Positions 2,557-64,000 of a stretch of 64,000 nt of DNA are shown piece by piece. A model generated the notes under the pieces. The model was not told the DNA's origin, did no database searches, and was given only the letters and a program-made list of their open reading frames with translations. The stretch is from Cephalotus follicularis. Lineage: Eukaryota > Streptophyta > Magnoliopsida > Oxalidales > Cephalotaceae. How positions within the stretch are numbered: position 1 is the first letter of the stretch; each line of letters opens with the position of its first letter. The translations under genes were made by a program, and so were the position numbers. The stretch covers positions 310,655-374,654 of the forward strand of contig BDDD01000980.1 in the NCBI GenBank assembly GCA_001972305.1, in the 5' to 3' direction.

Positions 2557-4238
2557 GTGCCAACCGCTAGAGTCTATGCTCTGAACAGAGAAGATGCTCT
2601 TGGATCCACAGACGTGGCTATAGGTAAGGCTCTTATCTTAGGCAGAGATGCCACGGTTTTTTTTGACACAGGAGCCTCTTTATCTTTTGTTGCCCATGCA
2701 TTTTGCACACATGCATGTGGGCTATTGAGTTCCTTGAACGAAGAGATCGTTGTATCTGTTCCTACGGTCCAGAGTTACCGTGTAGAATGAGTCTACAGAG
2801 GTTGTGATGTTGTGATCAAGGAACGGAGTTTTGTAGCCGACCTTATTCCCTTCAAGATTGAGGACTTTGATGCCATCCTGGGCATGGATTGGCTGGTAAG
2901 GCACCGAGCAGTGGTCGATTATTCGCGTAAGGTTGCTTGCTTTTGCTTGCCCGACGAGTCAAGCATGGAGTTAGTTTGCGAGAAATGCTCGGCACCTCTG
3001 AAGTTGATCTCGGCTCTGGTTGCACGTAAGGCTTTGGGTAAAGGTGCGCTAGGATTCTTAGCTCATGTGGTGGATACTCGGATGACTAAGCCAAAGGTAG
3101 GGGACATATCCATGGTTTGTGAGTTTCCCGATGTCTTCCCAGACGAGTTACCAGGTCCTCCTCTGGATAGGGAAATAGACATTGGGATTGAGTTGATCCC
3201 TGGTGCGGCCCCTATATCCTTTGCTCCTTTCCGTATGGCACCTGTAGAGTTGAAAGAGCTAAAGGTACAGTTGGAAGACTTGGTGGATAAAGGATTTATC
3301 CGACCTAGTAGTTCTCCATGGGGTGCTCCGGTCCTGTTTGTGAAGAAGAAGGATGGAGCTATGCGCTTGTGTATCGACTATAGGCAACTCAACAAGATAA
3401 CTGTGCGTAACAGGTATCCGTTGCCAAGGATAGATGACTTGTTTGATCAGATGCGAGACGCCTGTGTGTTCTCTAATATAGATCTTCGGTCTGGATATCA
3501 CCAGTTGAAGGTGAAGGAAGAGGATGTTCCGAAGATAGCCTTTAGATCTCGTTATGGTCACTATGAGTTCTTAGTTATGCTGTTTGATTTAACCAATGCA
3601 CCTGCTGCTTTCATGGATTTGATGAATCAAGTGTTCCAACCCTTCTTGGACACCTTTGTGGTGATGTTCATAGACGACGTGATGGTATACTCGCGGAGTA
3701 TTGGCTGAGCACGAGGAACACCTGAGGATTGTTTTGCAGACCTTGAGAAACCACGAGTTGTATGCTAAGCTCAGTAAATGTGAGTTTTGGTTGGACAGGG
3801 TTGTGTTTTTGGGCCATGTGATCTCGAGCCAAGGTGTTGAAGTTGACCCGAGGAAGGTTGAAGCTGTGTTGGCTTGGGAAAGACCCAAGAGCGTACATGA
3901 AGTGCACAGTTTCCTTGGACTTGCTGGCTATTACTGAAGGTTCATGGAGGGATTATCGACAATAGCAGCTCCTCTATCGAAGTTGACAAGGAAGGATGTG
4001 AAGTTTGTTTGGCCAGAAGACTATGAGAAGAGCTTCCAGACGTTGAAGGATAAGTTAACATCAGCTCCGGTGTTGACCCTTCCTTCTCCGGGGGTTGGTT
4101 TTGTGGTTTATAGTGATGCTTCTTTGCATGGTCTTAGTTGTGTGTTGATGCAAGAAGGGAAGGTTATTGCCTATGCTTCTTAGAAGTTGAGGTTCATGAG
4201 CTGAACTACCCTATGCATGACTTAGAGTTGGTTGCGGT
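2557..4238 (+). pseudogene. A1 protease, reverse transcriptase and N-terminal RNase H (5' half of pol)
   Basis: The frame 2557-3708 is interrupted only by TGA 2788-2790. The protease motif FFDTGASLSF is intact and is followed by [12 protein letters not shown] carries [10 protein letters not shown], the fingers/palm blocks and the catalytic FIDDVMVYS near 3670-3690. A frameshift follows at about 3700, and a TGA at 3935-3937 interrupts the [11 protein letters not shown] region. RNase H begins with [11 protein letters not shown] and stops at 4238, where A2 inserted. The rest of this gene lies at 49748-51543. Confidence 0.88.
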
Positions 4239-8815: not shown

Positions 8816-9075
8816 CAGTCGACTGGAATCCTCACCAGTCGACTGTTCTGGGTCGAGCAATATGAGTAGTCGACTGGTTCCTTCTACCAGTCGACTGTCC
8901 ATTAGGCAGTCGGCTGTTGTACTTCAACAGTCGACTGTTCCAGTACTCATACACGAGAAATTTCCCAGATTTCCATCTTTTGGGCAGGAGGAAGTATGAG
9001 TAGTCGACTGCTTTCCATTGGCAGTCGACTGGTATCGATGAGTAGTCGACTGTCTTCCTTCGACAGTCGGCTGCT
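8816..9075 (-). repeat. Phased palindrome array, cluster 1 of B LTR
   Basis: About ten copies of CAGTCGACTG or one-base variants; starts at 8816, 8836, 8867, 8888, 8907 and 8928 give mostly 19-21 bp steps. The asymmetric variant reads CAGCCGACTG in element sense. Confidence 0.85.
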
Positions 9076-9897
9076 CTGCAGTCCAGTGGCATACAATCGT
9101 TCTAATTACTCCCACGGATCATGTCAAGTAGATAAAATTAATTTCGGAACAGGTAATACAACTTACAGGTTATCATATCAACCATATAACAACTCATTAA
9201 CACTCATTTCATCATGCAAGCCAAAGTCATGAGAGGTTCAACATGCATGCACAATGATCACATTGATTCTCAGTAACAAACATAACAACTCCCAATAACA
9301 GTGACGATTACATCCTAAAACCAGTAGCTACAAGTCACATAACCAGGCATTGCAATTCATGGAACATGCAGTAAATTTAAACTCATAGTGCCATTACAAC
9401 TTTCCGCTACCTTTGATTCCAAGTTAGGAATCTGTAAGTCCACCTCTTTTAGTTCCAATCAGTATCTTTTCGAGCTCCCCAGAAGCTCCAACTCCAAGTC
9501 CAGCTGCTCCAAGGACAGCTACCACCTTGAGCTCCAAGCTTCAACAATGGACAACCACTCTCTTTTCTCTTTCTTTGTGGTTTTATCTCTATTGTCTCTG
9601 TGATTCTCCACTCAACAGTACCAGGACGAGGGAGAGTGAGTGGGACAGCTTTATGAAGAGCTTTTCCTCTCTTTCTTCCTCCCCTCTTCACATGGCACTA
9701 AATGCCACATTCATCTACTCACATGCAAGCACACACACACACAAGGCCAATTTCTCTGGCCCATGAGGTCTTGCATGGTTCACAGGTATCCTTTCTCTCC
9801 ATCCTCTTGGCTGCATGAAGCACAGATGGCCTCCTCTTCCCATGTCAGTTATAACATGTGATTCCTGTCACATGCAATAAAAACAAAGCATGATCCA

Positions 9898-10047
9898 GTC
9901 GACTGCCTTTCCCTGGCAGTCGGCTGGTCGCCTGGCAGTCTGTTGCCAAGTGTCTCTACAGTTGGCCAGTCAACTGGTTCATCCCACCAGTCGACTGCCC
10001 CCATATGCAGTCCTCCAGTCGGCTGGCCCTCCATACCAGTCGACTGC
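9898..10047 (-). repeat. Phased palindrome array, cluster 2 of B LTR
   Basis: About six copies of the same 10-bp palindrome and its variants near the 5' end of the LTR in element sense, upstream of the presumed transcription start. The 5' LTR of B has lost most of this cluster through the 1,067-bp deletion. Confidence 0.85.
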
Positions 10048-14901: not shown

Positions 14902-16519
14902 TGTCACACCCCGTTCAAGAGAAACGTAACATTAAAGCGGTAAAGGCAATTAACATAGAACACAGCTCATGCAAAAACCATAAAACTTAAAACTTTTTCC
15001 AAAGTACAACAGTTGCGGAAGCATAACAGAACATAAGCTGTAAACATGTAACGTGCGTCCCATACCGCACGCTACCCCAAATAATCCAACATTGTTAATC
15101 GCCCGTAAATGGAGCGTGAATTACAGTACAAGATAAAAATCCTTCAGAAACAAAACTATAACAATGGTACATCCGAAAACCATAAGTTTAATACAAAGCA
15201 GGAGAATAAGAAAAAACAAGATCATAATAACTTGATCTTCATCCATGTCAGTCCAACCGGTCCACTGCATCAATCTGTAAGGTAGGGGGTTAGCCTTTGT
15301 CCTCACTCGGCTAAGTCATAAAAGCAGTTCGGGATTAACATTAAATGCATGTCATGATATGAATGCATAAATGATGTAGTGTAAGAAAACCAGTTCTTAT
15401 ATATATCAGAAATATATATATTTTAACAGTACAGTAAAATAGCAGTGGGTACATATATAAGAAAATATATGTATGCAGGATCAGTAGAGTCGTAACCCGG
15501 CCAGGGCTACATCAACAAACACAGGAATGCCCGAGAAGGACCAACAGGCAGTACAGGATGTCCACATAGGACTACAACAGGCAGGATGTCCACATAGGAC
15601 CACAACAGGCAGTATGTGTAGCGCCGCCAACTCCTGGCCCCATGCTACACTCCCACTCCGGCCCCTACATTAGGCACCCGAGCGAGGCAACAGTACAGTG
15701 AGTTACCCAGCCATACTCCTGGCCCCTAGGTCAACCCTCCACTAGTCGGCGCTGGCAGTCTCCGCCATGCAACTAGTGGTTCAAGCACAATCACATAGCA
15801 ATTCACAGAGCACATAGTGAATTCAAGCAGTACAGTACAGTAAACAATAGTGATCGATTTGATCCACAACAGGCAGGTTATTTCCAAAATGTTTCCAAAG
15901 GTGACAACATTTGAAATATATATTTTCTATAGAAAATACTTGTAAACAGTTTCAGTAGTGTGAATTGTTTACCAGTTCGTTCGAAAATACGTTATTAATC
16001 ATTACATATTTCCATACTCAAAATAGCACATTCCGAGTTCATAAATGCATTTCTAAATATCCAAACTTTAGAAATCATAAACAATTCACAAACAGTATAC
16101 AATCAGGCAGTAAACAGTGCATATGCAATGCATACAAATGCTCCAATGCATTCCAACAGGAATAGGGATCGTTTCGTATCGTTTTAGGCCAAACAGAAGC
16201 CAACCAGTCAACTGGAATCCTCACCAGTCGACTGTTCTGGGTCAAGCATTATGAGTAGTCGACTGGTTCCTTCTACCAGTCGACTGTCCATTAGGCAGTC
16301 GGCTGTTGTACTTCAACAGTCGACTGTTCCAGTACTCACACACGATGGCCCTCCATACCAGTCGACTGCCTCCAGAATAATCACCAAGTAATCACACTTC
16401 TAAGTACATAAAAGATTAAAACAACGTCATCCAATTCGGAAACCCATATTTTATTAATTCCACAATTCAAATACAATTACATTGTGAAATTACAATACAG
16501 GAAAATCTCGGGCGTTACA
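14902..16519 (-). repeat. B 5' LTR with 1,067-bp internal deletion
   Basis: Same ends as the 3' LTR but 1,618 bp long. The junction at 16345/16346 joins the equivalents of 8956 and 10024. LTRs are identical at insertion, so the deletion came later. A 10-bp loss near 15186 is also seen. The deletion removes much of the upstream palindrome array, probably disabling the promoter. Confidence 0.92.
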
Positions 16520-28366: not shown

Positions 28367-29395
28367 TGTAGGAAGTCTAGAGGGGGGGGGGGGGGCTCCA
28401 ACCGAGCAATACAAGAGACAACCTCTCTTGTATGTGTGAAATAAGTGTTTAAATGGTTACAAATTCGTAGTGAATTTGTTTACAATAAAGCACAACTCTA
28501 AACAAAGCTTCTAGTAAATGTGGAATGTAAAAAGTGAGCTTTGTAATGTATTGGATTGCTTTGAAATGATCTCTTTTGATTGTTTGAAAGCTTGGTATTG
28601 TACTTGAGATAGCTTGGAAGAATATGCCACTTGAATGCTTAATCACTTGTGCAAGAGCTCCAAATTTCTTTATATAGTTGAGCCTCCAACGGATCTATTT
28701 TTAAGGGTCTGTTACAAATCCAGTCGGCTGAATTTGTACGGCAGTCGGCTGGATTGATGGAGCGTACATTTGAATATAGCAGTTGGTGTTGGACAGTCGG
28801 CTGTCTCCTCTAGGCAGTCGACTGGTAACACTGGCAGTCGACTGGATACTCTGTTCCAGTCGGCTGTTGAGGCTAAATAAGAAGTTACAGAACCTACTGC
28901 CTGATTTTCCATAATCGAAAACAGTCGGCTGGATTCTCTGGCAGTCGACTGGATCCTCTGGCAGTCGACTGGTCCCCTACTTCAGTCGGCTGGATTGGGT
29001 GTTAAAAAGTTACAGAAGCTTCTGCCTGAAGTGTGCACCCATGGCAGTCGACTGGTGTCCTGTGACAGTCGACTGGATTGGCCTGGCAGTCGACTGGACC
29101 CCTGTGGCAGTCGACTGGATTGGTGTTCCTGCAGATTCTGAGTTTGGTTGAAGAATCAGTCAACTACATAACCTCTGGAAGTCGACTACTTAACCTTGGG
29201 CAATCGACTGGATTGCTTTCCAGTCGGCTGTCTTGACCTGTTTCTGCATAAAAGTTCTTGGCACAACTTTGGACATTAAATCAAGTGAGTATATGAAGTT
29301 ATAACTTAAAGAATTATGCATACAAGTAATCTATGTTTGTTAATCATAAAAATAACATATGTAAATGCAATTAAACGGGGTGGCAAAGGCCAAAA
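28367..29395 (-). repeat. D 3' LTR (1,029 bp)
   Basis: Complete LTR. It contains a G14 run at 28382-28395, a TATA box (CTATATAAAG, element sense) at 28668-28677, and the palindrome array 28720-29231 just upstream of the TATA box. The terminal TG is changed to TT. Confidence 0.88.
28720..29231 (-). repeat. Phased palindrome array in D 3' LTR
   Basis: About 15 CAGTCGACTG/CAGTCGGCTG sites plus three degenerate ones. Starts 29045, 29066, 29087 and 29108 are exactly 21 bp apart; others (28815, 28835, 28857) step by 20-22. Spacers vary. It ends about 45 bp upstream of the TATA box. Confidence 0.9.
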
Positions 29396-41825: not shown

Positions 41826-43021
41826 AAATCAATCCAATGCAATGAGAAAATTAACACACACATATGCATAATCATATCTTCCAATACATAACACTACCCC
41901 TACCTCAATATGCTATCCCAAGATCAATTGAATGATCTTTCTCTTTGAAGCTTTCCAAGTCTCTTCCAAGCTTTTTACCAAATCAATTCTTTTCAATCAC
42001 AGGAGGTTCAATCTATGCATGTTATAGGTGCATGCATCAGTAGCAGATAAACATTCCAATCAGTAGCTTAAGTTATTATTTCATTAAGCTTTATGTCCCT
42101 CCATTTTACTACTTCTTATGCATGAACAACTACCTCAATTCTTAATTTCTTAATGGACAGAAGATGAGTAGGTATATACATAAGAATTTCAGTAGCTTAT
42201 CATGGCATTAGTAACAACCTTCTAACCAATTTAGAGATTGCATGTTCATATGCTTGAGCCAAAGTTACATTCCTTATCAATTCATCCTCTTAGGATGTTA
42301 ATCAAACGTTATACAGTAGATTAAACATCCTCCTAACCTCAATGTCAACTTACAACAACCCAGAAGTTAGGATTCGAACTTACCAGGAATGTCAAGGATT
42401 CCAAGTTCCCACTTTGAGCTTCAAGCTCCAAACTCTCCAATGCAAGCTTTCAATCAATTTCTCCAGCAACTCTCTCAATATTTTGTGTTTCTAACACTCA
42501 TAATATCCTCACATTCAGATGATATAGGCCATGAATTCGCCAGAGATTATTAGCTCCACATTTCCTCCATTTCCTCTCACTCACATGCAAATGTCTCATA
42601 TGCTTTTCTTTCTTAATTCTTGTAAATTGCAGGTTCTGCACATGCAGGTGGAGCAGAGGACATGCAAGGCCTCTACTTGCATGTTATGGCAGCTTAGGAC
42701 ACGTGCCCCCATTGTTTGCCACGCCAAGCTCAGTCCTACACCTGTACAGACACATGTTCTGTCGAAATTACAGTCGACTGGATTCATCAGGCAGTCAACT
42801 GGACATTCCACAAGACAGGCAGTCGACCGTTCCCCTATGGCAGTCGACTGTCAAGAGTTAAATTAGGGTTTCTTGAGTGGATTTCCACCAATTTGAATCC
42901 CAATTCATTTCAAACATTTCTATTAACCACAAATTACAATAATTGGACATTAAATTCAAATAAGTGCACATTTTATTAATTATTATTACAATGTACACGA
43001 ATTAAATTTGCGGTTCTTACA
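41826..43021 (-). repeat. H: LTR inserted in G gag, 3' end missing
   Basis: In element sense it starts TGTAAGAACCGC at 43021, directly after gag codons RQNPP. It resembles the G LTR in its end (GTAA-AACCG), its palindrome motifs (42771-42851) and a conserved GGTAAGT donor-like site, but is clearly diverged. The usual LTR end GGGGTGTGACA is missing. The 41826 border is approximate. Confidence 0.7.
42771..42851 (-). repeat. Palindrome motifs in H LTR
   Basis: Four copies, two exact CAGTCGACTG and two one-base variants, at 20-35 bp steps. Confidence 0.8.
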
Positions 43022-43421: not shown

Positions 43422-44628
43422 TGTCACACCCCGTGTTTCGGATCACGTTAAGACGAGCATATGTGGTGATATCAGAATTAAGCATAAATAATATTCCAGC
43501 ACAATTCTTAAATAAATTTACGGAAGCATTCGATAAGCCGGAATATAAATACAAGCCATCCGCACGCATCCCGTACTACGTGCGGGTAAAACCAACACTT
43601 ATCCTTACATAAAAGGAAAAAATAACACAACACAGGATGTGATCCGTTCGATACAATACAATACATCATAAAGGAAATAACAACCTTAAATAGTTCCCCA
43701 AGTCTTAACTCCCATTTAACAACTTCCTTTAAACTCTATGTCAACTATTATTCAATCTTGGATTCATTGATCTTAAGTGTGTTGATAGAAGATGCATTTA
43801 CATTTAGGAACTAGTAAGCATATATCCCAACATTAACAACAACTATAATCCCTTCTAGAGGTTATAGTCACTATTTCCACTTGATCCATTTACCAATTTC
43901 CCTTTCAATTCTAGAATTTGTTATCTTTAGTTATGTTAACAGTAGGTATTCAACATTATCCAGGTATATTATCATATCATGGCAGTGAGCTCGAGTTTAG
44001 AAACTTACCAAGAGTCTAAAGCTTCCAAGTCCTCCTTTGAGCTCTCTAAATCATCCAATGCAAGCCTTCAATAATCCTTAGCAACTTCTCACTTCACTCA
44101 GTATTTTCTAACACTCATTTCACCATTCAATCAGCTGATATAAGGTCAAAAGTCTTTTAAATTCGTCAGATTCCTTCTCTAAGTCACATGCACTCACTTT
44201 TCTCTCTTTTCTTTCCATCACATGCATCCATCTCTTCACCTTTCTCTCATTATTTTTCAATTTGTAGGTTGTAGGTCTACAGAGAACATGCAAGAATTCC
44301 CTTTTGCATGTTCTGGCAGGTGGTGAAATGCATGTGCCACACCGACCCCTGTCATTCTTGTCTCTGCACATGCCAGGAGTCTGTCCTGGACTAATCCAGT
44401 CGACTGGCTATAGTGGGCAGTCGACTGCCTTCAACATGCATCAAACAGTCGACTGTTGCCCTGTGACAGTCGGATGTTTGGGCTGGTTTAGGGTTTCCTA
44501 ATTTTGATACTTCACCCAATGTACATCCATTCATTCCAAGCATTTACCAATCATAGAAATTAATATAATTGAACAATTAACTCAATTAATTGAATCAATA
44601 TACATTAATTGAAGTTACGGTTATTACA
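43422..44628 (-). repeat. G 5' LTR (1,207 bp)
   Basis: Element sense TGTAATAACCG ... CACGGGGTGTGACA. It has four palindrome copies at 44397-44473 and a donor-like GGTAAGT near 44010. No coding region. Confidence 0.88.
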
Positions 44629-54666: not shown

Positions 54667-56742
54667 AAGAAAGAGAGGAGGGAGAAACGCATTTTCTCCA
54701 TAAAAACACATTTTCTCTTCTCTTCCCATCAGGAATCCAAGGAGATAAAGAGTAGTGGGGAAAAGGGGGAAGAAAAGAGAGAGGGAGGTTGAGCCCGAAT
54801 ACTCCGCGCTTGAACCGGAAGCTTGGAGACTCGAACCAATGGGAGGGCCGGACCTGTTGGAGTCGCTGGCCTGACCTGGGAGCTTTGAACGCTTCGGATT
54901 GGAACTTAAAGAGGTGGATTGAAATTCCTAACTTGGAATTCAAAGGTAGGGGAAATTTCATAATTGTTATTTAAAATCCGTTATAATGGACGTTTATGAA
55001 TGAAATGCATGCAATGGACTGTGATATGAGCATGAAATGTGTTGATGATGATAAATGCTCTGTTGTGTTTGGATTTGGATTGATGATTCCATGTTTTTTT
55101 TGTTGTTTTTGTGCACTGCGTGTAGGACCAGCCGACTGTCCAAAGACGACAGCCGACTGTTCAAGGCTACCAGTCGACTGTTCAGTGCAAACAGCCGACT
55201 GCTCGAGGGGAACAGCCGACTGCGCTAAGGAGCTAGTTGACTGTTCATGCGTTTTAATGGAGGTTTTCTCCTGCTGTATGATTACCAGACTACCAAGAGA
55301 AGGCATCCGACTGATTGATGGCACAGTTGACTGTTTGGGATGACAGTCGACTGTCCACGTGTCCCTTTAACCGGATTCGCTGAGGTGGCAATGCTTGGTT
55401 GAGTGGCGATGTAGAAGATACGTGTTGTTCACGAAACAGCCGACTGTCTTGAAGAGACAGCCGACTATTATGCGAGCAGTCGACGGTCAAACATGAGACA
55501 CCCGACTGTTGAGGGAGGCAGCCGACTGCCAAATCTGGGACAGCCGACTGCTAAGAGGAAACAGCTGACTGTCATGAAGAGGCAGCCGACTGTTGAGGGA
55601 CTAACTTGCATTTTGAGCATATGTTTGCATCTCATTTTGATATGAAATGAATTGATGATTGAAATGCGAATGATTCTAAAGTGTTTTATTCATTTTAGAA
55701 ATCTAAACATGATTTTATAAAAATCATTATTTGATATGAAAATGTATATTTTGATAAATGTATGTTTTCGACGGATTGAAACATGGTTTCAAAGATGCAA
55801 TAAATTTTAAAATAAATGTATTATTTCCAGTATTTTATAAATTACTTGGGAACGATTAGATTTGAATTGATTTGTTGATTGTGATTGATGTCGTACTGGA
55901 TGGGGTGACGGAGTGTCGTTGATGGCTGGTGGCGGGATGTTCTCCTAGGTGCCAGTAGATGGCTAGGGACACCCAAATACAATGTTACTACACACATAGT
56001 TCAAGTAACACAGGTTACCATGATTGCTAAACACAGAGTGCGAGCATCATGAGTTTGATTTGTTGCCTTGCTTCGTGACCCGGGAGTCGGGGGCTGGAGT
56101 AAGAGTATGACGTCGGGCCAGCAGATGGCGGTGCTCTTCGTACCGATTCGATTCGATTTGATTTATCCTTTGAGACATGATTGATGATTTGATGGTTGTA
56201 GCCACTTGGCATGGTTGCACCTATTGGCATAGATACATATATATATATTGTGATATACTATGTATTGCATCATGGATGCATTCATTACATCACAATCATT
56301 ATCATCGACCCTAAATTACACTTATGATTTAGCTGAGTGAGGACAAAGGCTAACCCCCTAATATTACAGATTGATGCAGTGGCTTGGATTTCGACCGTGC
56401 ACGGCCGAATCAGAGGGGAGACGGAGTTTTATCTGCTTAAATAAATGTTAAACGATGTTTTGAGACACGTTTTGTTTTGGATTACTGTACTAATGTTTTA
56501 ATGTTGTTGATCGACTTTTGGATCACGCGCCGTTTGTGGGTGTTTTAACAATGACTTAATGATGATGTTGTGGGAATCATGTGGTATGGGACGCATGATT
56601 CGGTTTATTTTCAGCTTATATTTAAATGCTTCCGCAAGATGTCAATGGTATTTAAAGTTTTAAATTTACCGTATTTGCATAAGCTGAATATTTATGTTAA
56701 AATGCCATGACCTTTATGTTGTCAATGAAACGGAGTGTGACA
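54667..56742 (+). repeat. I 5' LTR, 3' portion
   Basis: Homologous to the B LTR in reverse: GATTGGAAC-TAAAGAGGTGGA, CCTAACTTGGAAT-CAAAGGTAG, GAGGACAAAGGCTAACCCCC and the end GTGTGACA. It contains the best phased palindrome array. No gene. Confidence 0.85.
55129..55592 (+). repeat. 21-bp-phased CAG(C/T)CGACTG array in I LTR
   Basis: Six units start at 55129, 55150, 55171, 55192, 55213 and 55234, exactly 21 bp each, with unrelated 11-bp spacers. Further units at 55324, 55344, 55437, 55458, 55477, 55499, 55519, 55541, 55562 and 55583 step mostly 19-22 bp. Confidence 0.92.
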
Positions 56743-61529: not shown

Positions 61530-61754
61530 TGTAATGCCCGAGATTTTCATTAAAGTGTAATATTGTATTTCCAATGTAATTTACGCTTTGAATTAATGAG
61601 AATCATGATTTTCCTCTCTTGTGTATTGAAAAGTTGCAAGAAAGGATGTGAAAGTGTGTGTTATGCAGGGTGGGCAGCCGACTACCTGAAGGAGGCAATC
61701 GGCTGGACCCTAAGGGAAGGAACCAGCCCACTGCTGTGACAAGCTAGCTGGGAG
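61530..61754 (+). repeat. I 3' LTR, first 225 bp
   Basis: TGTAATGCCCGAGATTTTC after the purine tract GAATGAGGGGTAGA, comparable to the B LTR start. It holds three degenerate palindrome copies near 61676-61730. Cut by J at 61755. Confidence 0.82.
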
Positions 61755-64000
61755 TGTAATACCCTGTTCGTTCGTAAATGTATTTTTACGGGTTCGTAAA
61801 TATATTTTTACGAATTTTATATTTGTGTTTTCGGGCTTTTAATTTTGTTTAATTTTAAGGTCCGGTTGCCCAATGATCGGGTTATGTGAATTGTGCGGTA
61901 TGATACCGGTCCGATATTTGGGTATGTTATGCTATGTTGGGTTTTATAAATTCTTATTTTAATCCAAAATTATTTTATTAAAAACAAATTATTATTCTTT
62001 TATTTTAATATTCCTTATTTTTCCTTTTCATTATTAATTCATTTTGTTATTATTTCTTTTTCTTTTCTTTTTCCTATTTTATCATTTTCTACCATTTTCA
62101 CCTACTTCCTTCCACCACCCTTCTCCTTTCCAGCAGATTTCTCCTTCCCACCATCTGAAAAGCCATGTTAGAATCTCTCTTTTTCATTTCATAATCCAGA
62201 AAAGTCTCATTCCATTTCCCTTTCTCAAATCTTGTCTCCCCCTTTCTTCATATTTGAGTGCCATTGCCATTTTTATATGATGCCACCATCCCTATTGCAA
62301 ACAAATCCGAATCTGCCTTGTTATTGTGCAAAACTTTGCTGTGTAATTCATTCTCCAACATTCAGAAGGTAATCTCAATCCCTTAATTGTTTCCTTGGAT
62401 TGAATCCTTTTAATTTGCTATGTATGTCTAAAAATACCATGGTTTTGTATTCGTCTTTCTTTGTTTCTGTTCACAGCTGAATTGTGTGTTGTACTGTGTT
62501 CTTCCTACTGTTTTCTGGGTTATCTAACATCATTAAAGGTCAGTGAATTCATTCCCTTTAATTATGGTTTTGTTTCAATGCCTTACTATGAGTTTTTGTG
62601 CTCTTGGTATCTTGGAGTCTTTGATTCTTGCCTAAACATGTTGTCAATGTATTAGTGATGTTATCTGCACGTTTTATGCTTCTATATATGTCACAAACTA
62701 AGTTTATAACATCTGTATTTAATAAAACACAGAATCTGGACATGTTCATGCAATGTCTCCTTACTTCCTTTTTCAAGTTAAATCATTAAAAAGTCCGAAA
62801 TGTTAAGGTACGAATTCTTCGTTCCTTGACAAATTCTTACTGTTTCAGTTCTGTTTTAGATTTAAATACAGATTCTGGTTTGATATCACTCAGTTTGTAA
62901 ATATGTTTACCTTGGTTTATAAATTCCGTATGTTTGTGTTTTTGGAAATAAAGTCATTTGATATTTTATGAAGTAAATATTCTGACTTTATGAAATCAGT
63001 TACGATATGTTTACGAAATGATATGCAATCATCTCCTTATTGTGAAATTAAATAAGTTGATTTTTCTGATTATGAAAGTATATGAAACTATATCGTTTGA
63101 ATACGATTTGTGGTAATGGTTTGGGAAACATTTTTTTGTTTTAAAATGATTTGATGAAATCATGTTTTCGGAAATGGTTGGACATGAGCATGACTTTCAC
63201 TATCGAGAGTATGTTAAATGGGCATGACTTTCCCTATCAAAAGTATGCTGGTTTTATGAAACGATATGTATATGTTTTGAATTGATTTTGGAGTGAACCA
63301 ATATATGAAATGATTTTGATAAATCATTATTTTCGAAATACTAAGTTTTTGAAATGGTGAAATACTGAGCTTTTATATCCACCTATGGGGGTACCATAGG
63401 CATGCTGTGGGCCTGGCACGGGGGCATGACACTTTCCGTAACGGTGTGATTTGTTTACGGCATCTCTCTGTGATATCCATAGATCGGATTTGTGATAGAG
63501 GCGTATGGATCGATCCTAATTATATGTTTTGGGATATGTTATGATATAGGAATTGTATGTGTAGTGTTGTACACTGCAATTCTATTTGGCAATGTGGGTG
63601 TCGCGAACCCCTTGCTATTATGTGTTTCTGATATGTTATGGGATTTGGTGCTCAGTTTATGGAACCTATGTTTTGGAAAAGATATGCTTTACATTTTGAA
63701 AGTTTATGGAACCTATGTTTTGGAAAAGATATGCTTTACGTTTTGAAAGTTTATTGATCCTATGTTTTGGAAAGGTACACTTTATGGTTTATATGTTTTG
63801 CTGTGGGCATTTATAAAACATGTTTAAATTATTTTATTGCTAACATTTCAGTTTTAAATGTACTTTTTGGAAATCTTCCTGCTTTAAAATATTATTTACT
63901 GTTTTATATTCTATATCCGTACTGAGGTTTGCTCAGCCGCGTTTTTGTTTCCATGCGGCAGGTTATCGGGAGCAAAGGGGCAATGTGTGATGAGAGTGAC
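61755..64000 (+). repeat. Element J: probable LTR start of another retrotransposon (incomplete)
   Basis: TGTAATACCC starts abruptly inside the I LTR and more than 2.2 kb of noncoding, AT-rich sequence follows. TTCGTAAAT-type inverted repeats lie near the start, a donor/acceptor-like pair at 62369 and 62476, and a TGCTCAGCC ... GCAGGTTATCGG segment near the window end, as in some long gypsy LTRs. No coding region is convincing. The right end is outside the window. Confidence 0.55.
63654..63785 (+). repeat. 47-bp tandem repeat in J (about 2.8 copies)
   Basis: Units start AGTTTATGGAACCTATG at 63654 and 63701, and a diverged copy starts at 63748. Confidence 0.88.

Follow-up and report, generated by a model that had tools for sequence, protein, structure and literature searches.

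The 5′ LTR of a gypsy element of Cephalotus follicularis, element C, carries a dense array of a ten-base motif with the consensus CAG(T/C)CGACTG (CAGYCGACTG), and this array exemplifies a pattern found throughout the genome. Such arrays are probably a promoter/enhancer module of LTR retrotransposons, in which repeated, putative CAGYCGACTG sites at fixed spacing would be recognised by one sequence-specific DNA-binding factor. The window, that is, the whole stretch of 64,000 nucleotides that was analysed, is plant DNA built of nested LTR elements.

Between 55129 and 55592, 17 sites with at most two mismatches to CAGTCGACTG were found, with successive gaps of 21, 21, 21, 21, 21, 70, 20, 20, 93, 21, 19, 22, 20, 22, 21 and 21 bp. 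The sites of element C are as follows:

55129–55243, plus strand: run 1 in the 5′ LTR, six CAGYCGACTG-type sites at exact 21-bp steps
55304–55353, plus strand: run 2, three sites at 20-bp steps, with a CACGTG box behind them at 55356–55361
55437–55592, plus strand: run 3, eight sites at 19–22-bp steps
61675–61733, plus strand: three decayed sites with gaps of 21 and 28 bp, about 145 bp inside the 3′ LTR

The core starts of run 1 (55129, 55150, 55171, 55192, 55213 and 55234) confirmed the preliminary description, which had reported six starts exactly 21 bp apart; the exact step held for this run but not for the later ones, where it varied from 19 to 22 bp. One of the six sites is a perfect palindrome, four have the form CAGCCGACTG, and the sixth is TAGTTGACTG. 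The start of the 5′ LTR seems to be cut by neighbouring sequence, and the start of the 3′ LTR was placed by eye at the TG at 61530. Exact CAGTCGACTG, present 34 times, was the commonest 10-mer in the window; 60 dinucleotide shuffles averaged 0.05 copies and never exceeded 1.

Ten conserved positions with sharp edges were evident from 62 sites of the window (one LTR per pair) and from 80 sites of nine representative arrays. Among the 80 sites, position 4 was T or C, and CGAC at positions 5–8 was kept in 75, 80, 79 and 77 sites, respectively, matching the CRT/DRE core RYCGAC/GTCGAC. The flanking CA and TG were conserved equally to the centre, which is partly by construction, as the sites were chosen by ten-base similarity; this selection does not account for the sharp edges, the asymmetry between T and C at position 4 or the random spacers.

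Further arrays were found in other elements of the window, together with an ORF of element D that encodes a PF20167 protein:

9896–10046, minus strand: element B (gypsy), 3′ LTR, first array with a 21-28-21 layout and then an extra pair
8816–9073, minus strand: element B, 3′ LTR, second array with runs of four, four and two sites
16205–16368, minus strand: element B, 5′ LTR, seven sites, without about 1.07 kb present in the other LTR
28721–29230, minus strand: element D, 3′ LTR, 18 sites in runs of 4, 4, 4, 4 and 2, the last ending 44 bp before TATATAA
31324–31813, minus strand: element D, 5′ LTR, 17 sites, likewise ending 44 bp before TATATAA
30369–31082, minus strand: PF20167 ORF of element D, stop to stop
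42771–42850, minus strand: E1, gypsy-type LTR array with a 21-28-21 layout, LTR start at the TG at 43021 (by eye)
44397–44476, minus strand: E2, gypsy-type LTR array with a 21-28-21 layout, LTR start at the TG at 44628 (by eye)

The length difference between the B LTRs lies between arrays (8956–10024 versus 16345–16346), and one end of it falls inside a core (10016–10025), which suggests a recombination involving array sites. About 57 terminal bases of the D 3′ LTR are absent from the D 5′ LTR (28367–28422; 31026). The latter passes directly into the ORF and lacks an obvious primer-binding site, as though a spliced transcript had been its template. The LTRs of window families A, F and G were devoid of sites with at most one mismatch. 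LTR family H is present at the right end of the window (61757–64000), where no array was seen, and around positions 3450 of locus L037 and 2535 of locus L035; in copies other than the one in the window, the LTR of this family carries an antisense array.

The surroundings of the B, C and E arrays lacked a clear TATA. By eye, the second arrays of B and C lie downstream of a conserved block resembling a splice donor and are probably within the transcribed LTR, which implies that not every array is upstream of the start site.

Comparison of the flanks resolved the arrays of the window and of a 200-kb sample into eight groups. The sample consisted of 20 stretches elsewhere in the genome that had been picked for 21-bp pair matches. 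The motif is not confined to a single LTR family: several Ty3/gypsy families carry it in their LTRs, as do LTRs that flank copia gag, and it is also present in the proximal promoters of PF20167 genes. D-type LTR array loci contain copia gag PF14223 (L020, L030 and L036) as well as PF20167 ORFs, and in L035 the copia reverse transcriptase PF07727 lies upstream of the PF20167 ORF. Gypsy pol accompanies the E, B, C and H arrays; for H, the flanks of array group 3 match the LTR family that follows gypsy pol in L037. Searching with the ORF of element D, the best 120 of 352 protein matches were all from Cephalotus follicularis, the top ones being 97–98% identical.

The PF20167 gene of the copia lineage has an array-bearing promoter of its own with a CT-rich leader (L026 9089–9183, L030 9574, L035 4487–4582). 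Of 20 D-type PF20167 ORFs drawn from 111 genome places, 19 were preceded by three to seven sites, in sense orientation only and typically at −189 to −126 from the ATG. Upstream of the twentieth (L052), the sequence resembles, by eye, the end of a gypsy E LTR, and the array of the L066 promoter is laid out differently. For another PF20167 subfamily, none of 12 upstream regions (the 12 highest-scoring of 150 places) contained a site. At 1900–3315 of L039 lies a divergent PF20167 ORF that shares 20% identity with the D type and has no array immediately upstream. A CGACAGA-like sequence after the last core, recognised by eye, is common to the gypsy E, gypsy H and PF20167 promoter arrays (E1 LTR past 42771, minus strand; L035 around 2535, minus strand; L026 9160).

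The spacing was quantified by counting exact core pairs at fixed steps (10–18, 20, 21, 23–27 and 28 bp) on both strands over the 1,577,397,061 bases of the C. follicularis genome, with pairs of perfect palindromes entering on both strands. At 21 bp, 55,531 forward and 55,829 reverse pairs were obtained versus 165 and 160 for a reversed-pattern control (1.58 Gb), and at 20 bp, 20,492 and 20,544 pairs. Requiring T in the first core, we counted 5,352/5,343 pairs at 28 bp and 3,122/3,092 at 23–27 bp pooled, where all but nine of about 100 matches listed had a step of 27 bp; steps of 10–18 bp (spacers of 0–8 bases) gave only 45/43 pairs when pooled. Core-to-core distances, whose tabulation had been proposed as a check, are therefore sharply quantised rather than random. 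The 200-kb sample contained 274 sites with at most one mismatch, 271 of them in clusters. Within clusters, 172 of 232 gaps measured 19–22 bp and 18 measured 27–28 bp, many copies being related; the remainder fell at 40–43, 49–52, 60–65, 73 and 93 bp, and gaps of 10–18, 23–26 or 29–39 bp were absent from the sample. An even number of sites was counted by eye in 22 of 24 runs of 19–22-bp steps (P = 1.8e-5 at one half), in a post hoc tally in which runs within families are non-independent and further odd runs appear when the L026 copy of D or the C 3′ LTR is used.

The 21-28-21 layout was repeated in gypsy E, B and H and was not seen among the copia arrays examined. The proposal that all sites lie on the same face of the DNA fails where these gypsy elements keep the 27–28-bp step. 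Among the matches listed, 23 of 37 distinct 28-step spacers contained CACG or CGTG, compared with 3.8 expected from shuffles (maximum 10), and in 21 of these 23 the box was exactly central; the 37 spacers come from related copies, so that descent inflates the figure. For the 27-step spacers, the corresponding value was 22 of 38 versus 3.6 from shuffles.

Comparing exact 21-bp units within elements (73 pairs), cores were 94% identical and spacers 37%, versus 27% for shuffled spacer letters. The claim of unrelated spacers was thus nearly right, the within-element excess being what it had missed. Between copia (9 units from D and the PF20167-promoter arrays) and gypsy (20 units), core identity was 0.896 and spacer identity 0.294, with 0.263 expected for spacers. 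These values bear on whether the arrays are ordinary tandem repeats, a functionless minisatellite spread in LTRs by slippage and recombination. In support of such an origin, units have been gained and lost, as seen from the 5′ LTR of D being one site short of its 3′ LTR and from the 1.07-kb difference of the B LTRs between arrays, and the spacers within an element retain a weak residual similarity. A minisatellite would, however, be alike over the whole unit, and this is not what was found: between families the spacers are near random and the cores are not, and the E1 and E2 spacers diverge far beyond their cores (core 4/40, spacer 23/40, flank 291/704), with 21-28-21 kept in both arrays free of indels. 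We consider a minisatellite very improbable, in agreement with the preliminary description.

Near-identical spacers, as expected of a plain tandem repeat, were encountered for comparison in those three of the bacterial loci read that contain several spacers (L002, L011 and L012). The two-core pattern had returned 13 bacterial loci, which were set aside after five had been read; in these five (L002, L007, L010, L011 and L012), the same 10-mer as in Cephalotus is repeated at 21-, 22- or 23-bp steps. Two exact cores with a 9–13-base spacer gave no match in IMG/VR, and the LTR of element C none among plasmids. A coding repeat was rejected, as steps of 19, 20 and 22 bp and stops break the frames; a protein search with the array translation yielded 11 candidates, none with E ≤ 1.

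The contrast between cores and spacers, together with the quantised distances, supports the idea of a homotypic array with its core under selection and its spacing held. Among the PF20167 promoters, the pairwise difference was 6.9% for the core, 13.9% for the spacer and 24.8% for the leader (17 of the 20 promoters; L052, L063 and L066 left out). Between the two LTRs of element D, 3/170 core, 10/320 spacer and 19/477 flank positions differed, and between those of element B, 1/60 core versus 2/62 spacer positions. Protection of the cores after insertion is thus not clear; the LTR pairs of single insertions should be neutral. The little core protection in these pairs fits a selection that operates only in active lineages, during their replication, and spares dead copies. 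Part of the sharing between families could be explained by common descent or by an exchange of array cassettes.

The site itself has a direction. The palindrome and the dimeric binding first proposed hold only in part, with position 4 being T or C and its mirror position 7 being A in 79 of the 80 sites. The CAGCCGACTG form faces one direction within an array, and none of the 39 clusters of the 200-kb sample combined CAGCCGACTG with CAGTCGGCTG. Genome-wide, 19,109 same-direction CAGCC pairs at 21 bp (9,549 + 9,560) compare with 270 convergent pairs. This implies that the site is polar and no strict palindrome, and the strict polarity within arrays argues against a symmetric site as well as against hairpins. 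Relative to transcription, the motif has the sense orientation in elements B, C, D and E as well as in the PF20167 promoters, and the antisense orientation in gypsy H; use of either orientation could be the behaviour of an enhancer.

The orientation is also relevant to an action at the RNA level, where the sites would serve in the transcript as hairpins, as targets of an RNA-binding protein or as a packaging signal. The sense orientation in all of these groups but gypsy H is compatible with this, and array RNAs folded below core-letter shuffles in five of five cases, by about −1 to −8 standard deviations. The fold stability is, however, a consequence of the near-palindrome, and pairing would favour CAGCC beside CAGTCGGCTG, the arrangement represented by just the 270 convergent neighbours. 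Considering further that the gypsy H array is antisense to its LTR and that arrays occupy promoter positions of an internal gene (PF20167), we regard an RNA-level element as extremely improbable.

The binding-site reading explains the data best because it accounts for the promoter placement, the fixed spacing, the conserved polar core, the occurrence in either orientation and the sharing between superfamilies. A protein would bind the motif, and the arrays would activate transcription. The putative module has steps mostly of 20–22 bp and, in gypsy LTRs, also one of 27–28 bp in which a CACG/CGTG box is frequent; the motif is common to the LTRs of several families and, in one copia lineage, stands also before the PF20167 gene. 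The candidate factor is probably a host regulator rather than a transposon protein. The leading named candidate is a host stress regulator, a DREB/CBF-type AP2/ERF factor, because GYCGAC matches a catalogued core. MCIRE is an element of Medicago. In excerpts of the respective papers, it is named as a CCGAC-bearing LTR element (PMC5059998), and GTCGAC and RYCGAC are catalogued as CRT/DRE cores (PMC9138379, PMC7570135), with PLACE entries in PMC9138379. Conservation of the CA and TG flanks is not required by a 6-bp DREB core, and these flanks and the strict grammar appear to demand more than a DREB monomer.

Alternatively, the factor may be encoded by the transposons, in a VANC-like system of LTR elements: the copia PF20167 protein would bind the motif, autoregulate its own array promoter and activate or un-silence the LTRs of its lineage, with gypsy families exploiting it. 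The array before D-type PF20167 genes and its absence from the other subfamily are in line with this, as are the clustering of sites in the sampled stretches and, by eye, the basic N-terminus, acidic stretch and coiled-coil-like C-terminus of PF20167 proteins. Dense motif arrays of uniform orientation in the noncoding DNA of transposable elements, as observed here, moreover resemble VANC targets as excerpted from PMC5735166. Against this, the AF2 model of the PF20167 protein was unusable (mean pLDDT 40.5), no PDB relative was found by sequence (best match E = 0.058, irrelevant), and the domain is also present in an extra ORF of sunflower Athila, according to an excerpt of PMC11728184. Among the ORFs scanned, none with PF20167 was seen in gypsy B, C and E of the window. 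We hold a transposon-encoded factor to be unlikely. Quite unlikely, too, is a full regulon, in which the copia PF20167 protein would recognise CAGYCGACTG arrays as a dedicated activator or anti-silencing factor and control its own gene and LTRs, and which several gypsy families would have hijacked via a converged or captured grammar.

Title-level literature searches returned no earlier description of this array, and among papers with the literal motif string, no title concerned transposable elements. If one binding grammar is common to both superfamilies, with very many copies in a single genome, families would compete for or exploit one factor. In that case, convergent transposon control and cross-family driving by a transposon-coded factor would become directly testable, and the host genome would be seeded with ready-made arrays.

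Among known systems, ONSEN/COPIA78 and other heat-responsive COPIA elements of Brassicaceae are alike in that the LTRs of several families contain clusters of host transcription factor sites which have expanded through duplication (PMC5059998, in excerpt), and the D array shares the ONSEN-type position of a cluster near TATA within the LTR. The Cephalotus arrays differ in that the present motif is CAGYCGACTG, with up to 18 sites at 19–22 or 27–28 bp, and in that the arrays are common to copia LTRs, gypsy LTRs and an internal gene promoter. VANC targets in VANDAL elements are, in the part of PMC5735166 available, likewise short motifs with C/T-variable positions that are dense, noncoding and of the same orientation, with a tandem-type gain and loss. 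VANDAL is, however, one DNA-transposon family, whereas LTR retrotransposons of two superfamilies are concerned here: the motif is not confined to a family encoding its binder, being present at both copia-type and gypsy-type loci, and PF20167 is a candidate binder. The CRT/DRE elements (RYCGAC, GTCGAC), reported in the MCIRE LTR, are matched exactly by GYCGAC, as far as excerpts of PMC9138379 and PMC5059998 go; the present motif comprises ten conserved bases instead of six and is organised in strict arrays with defined spacing.
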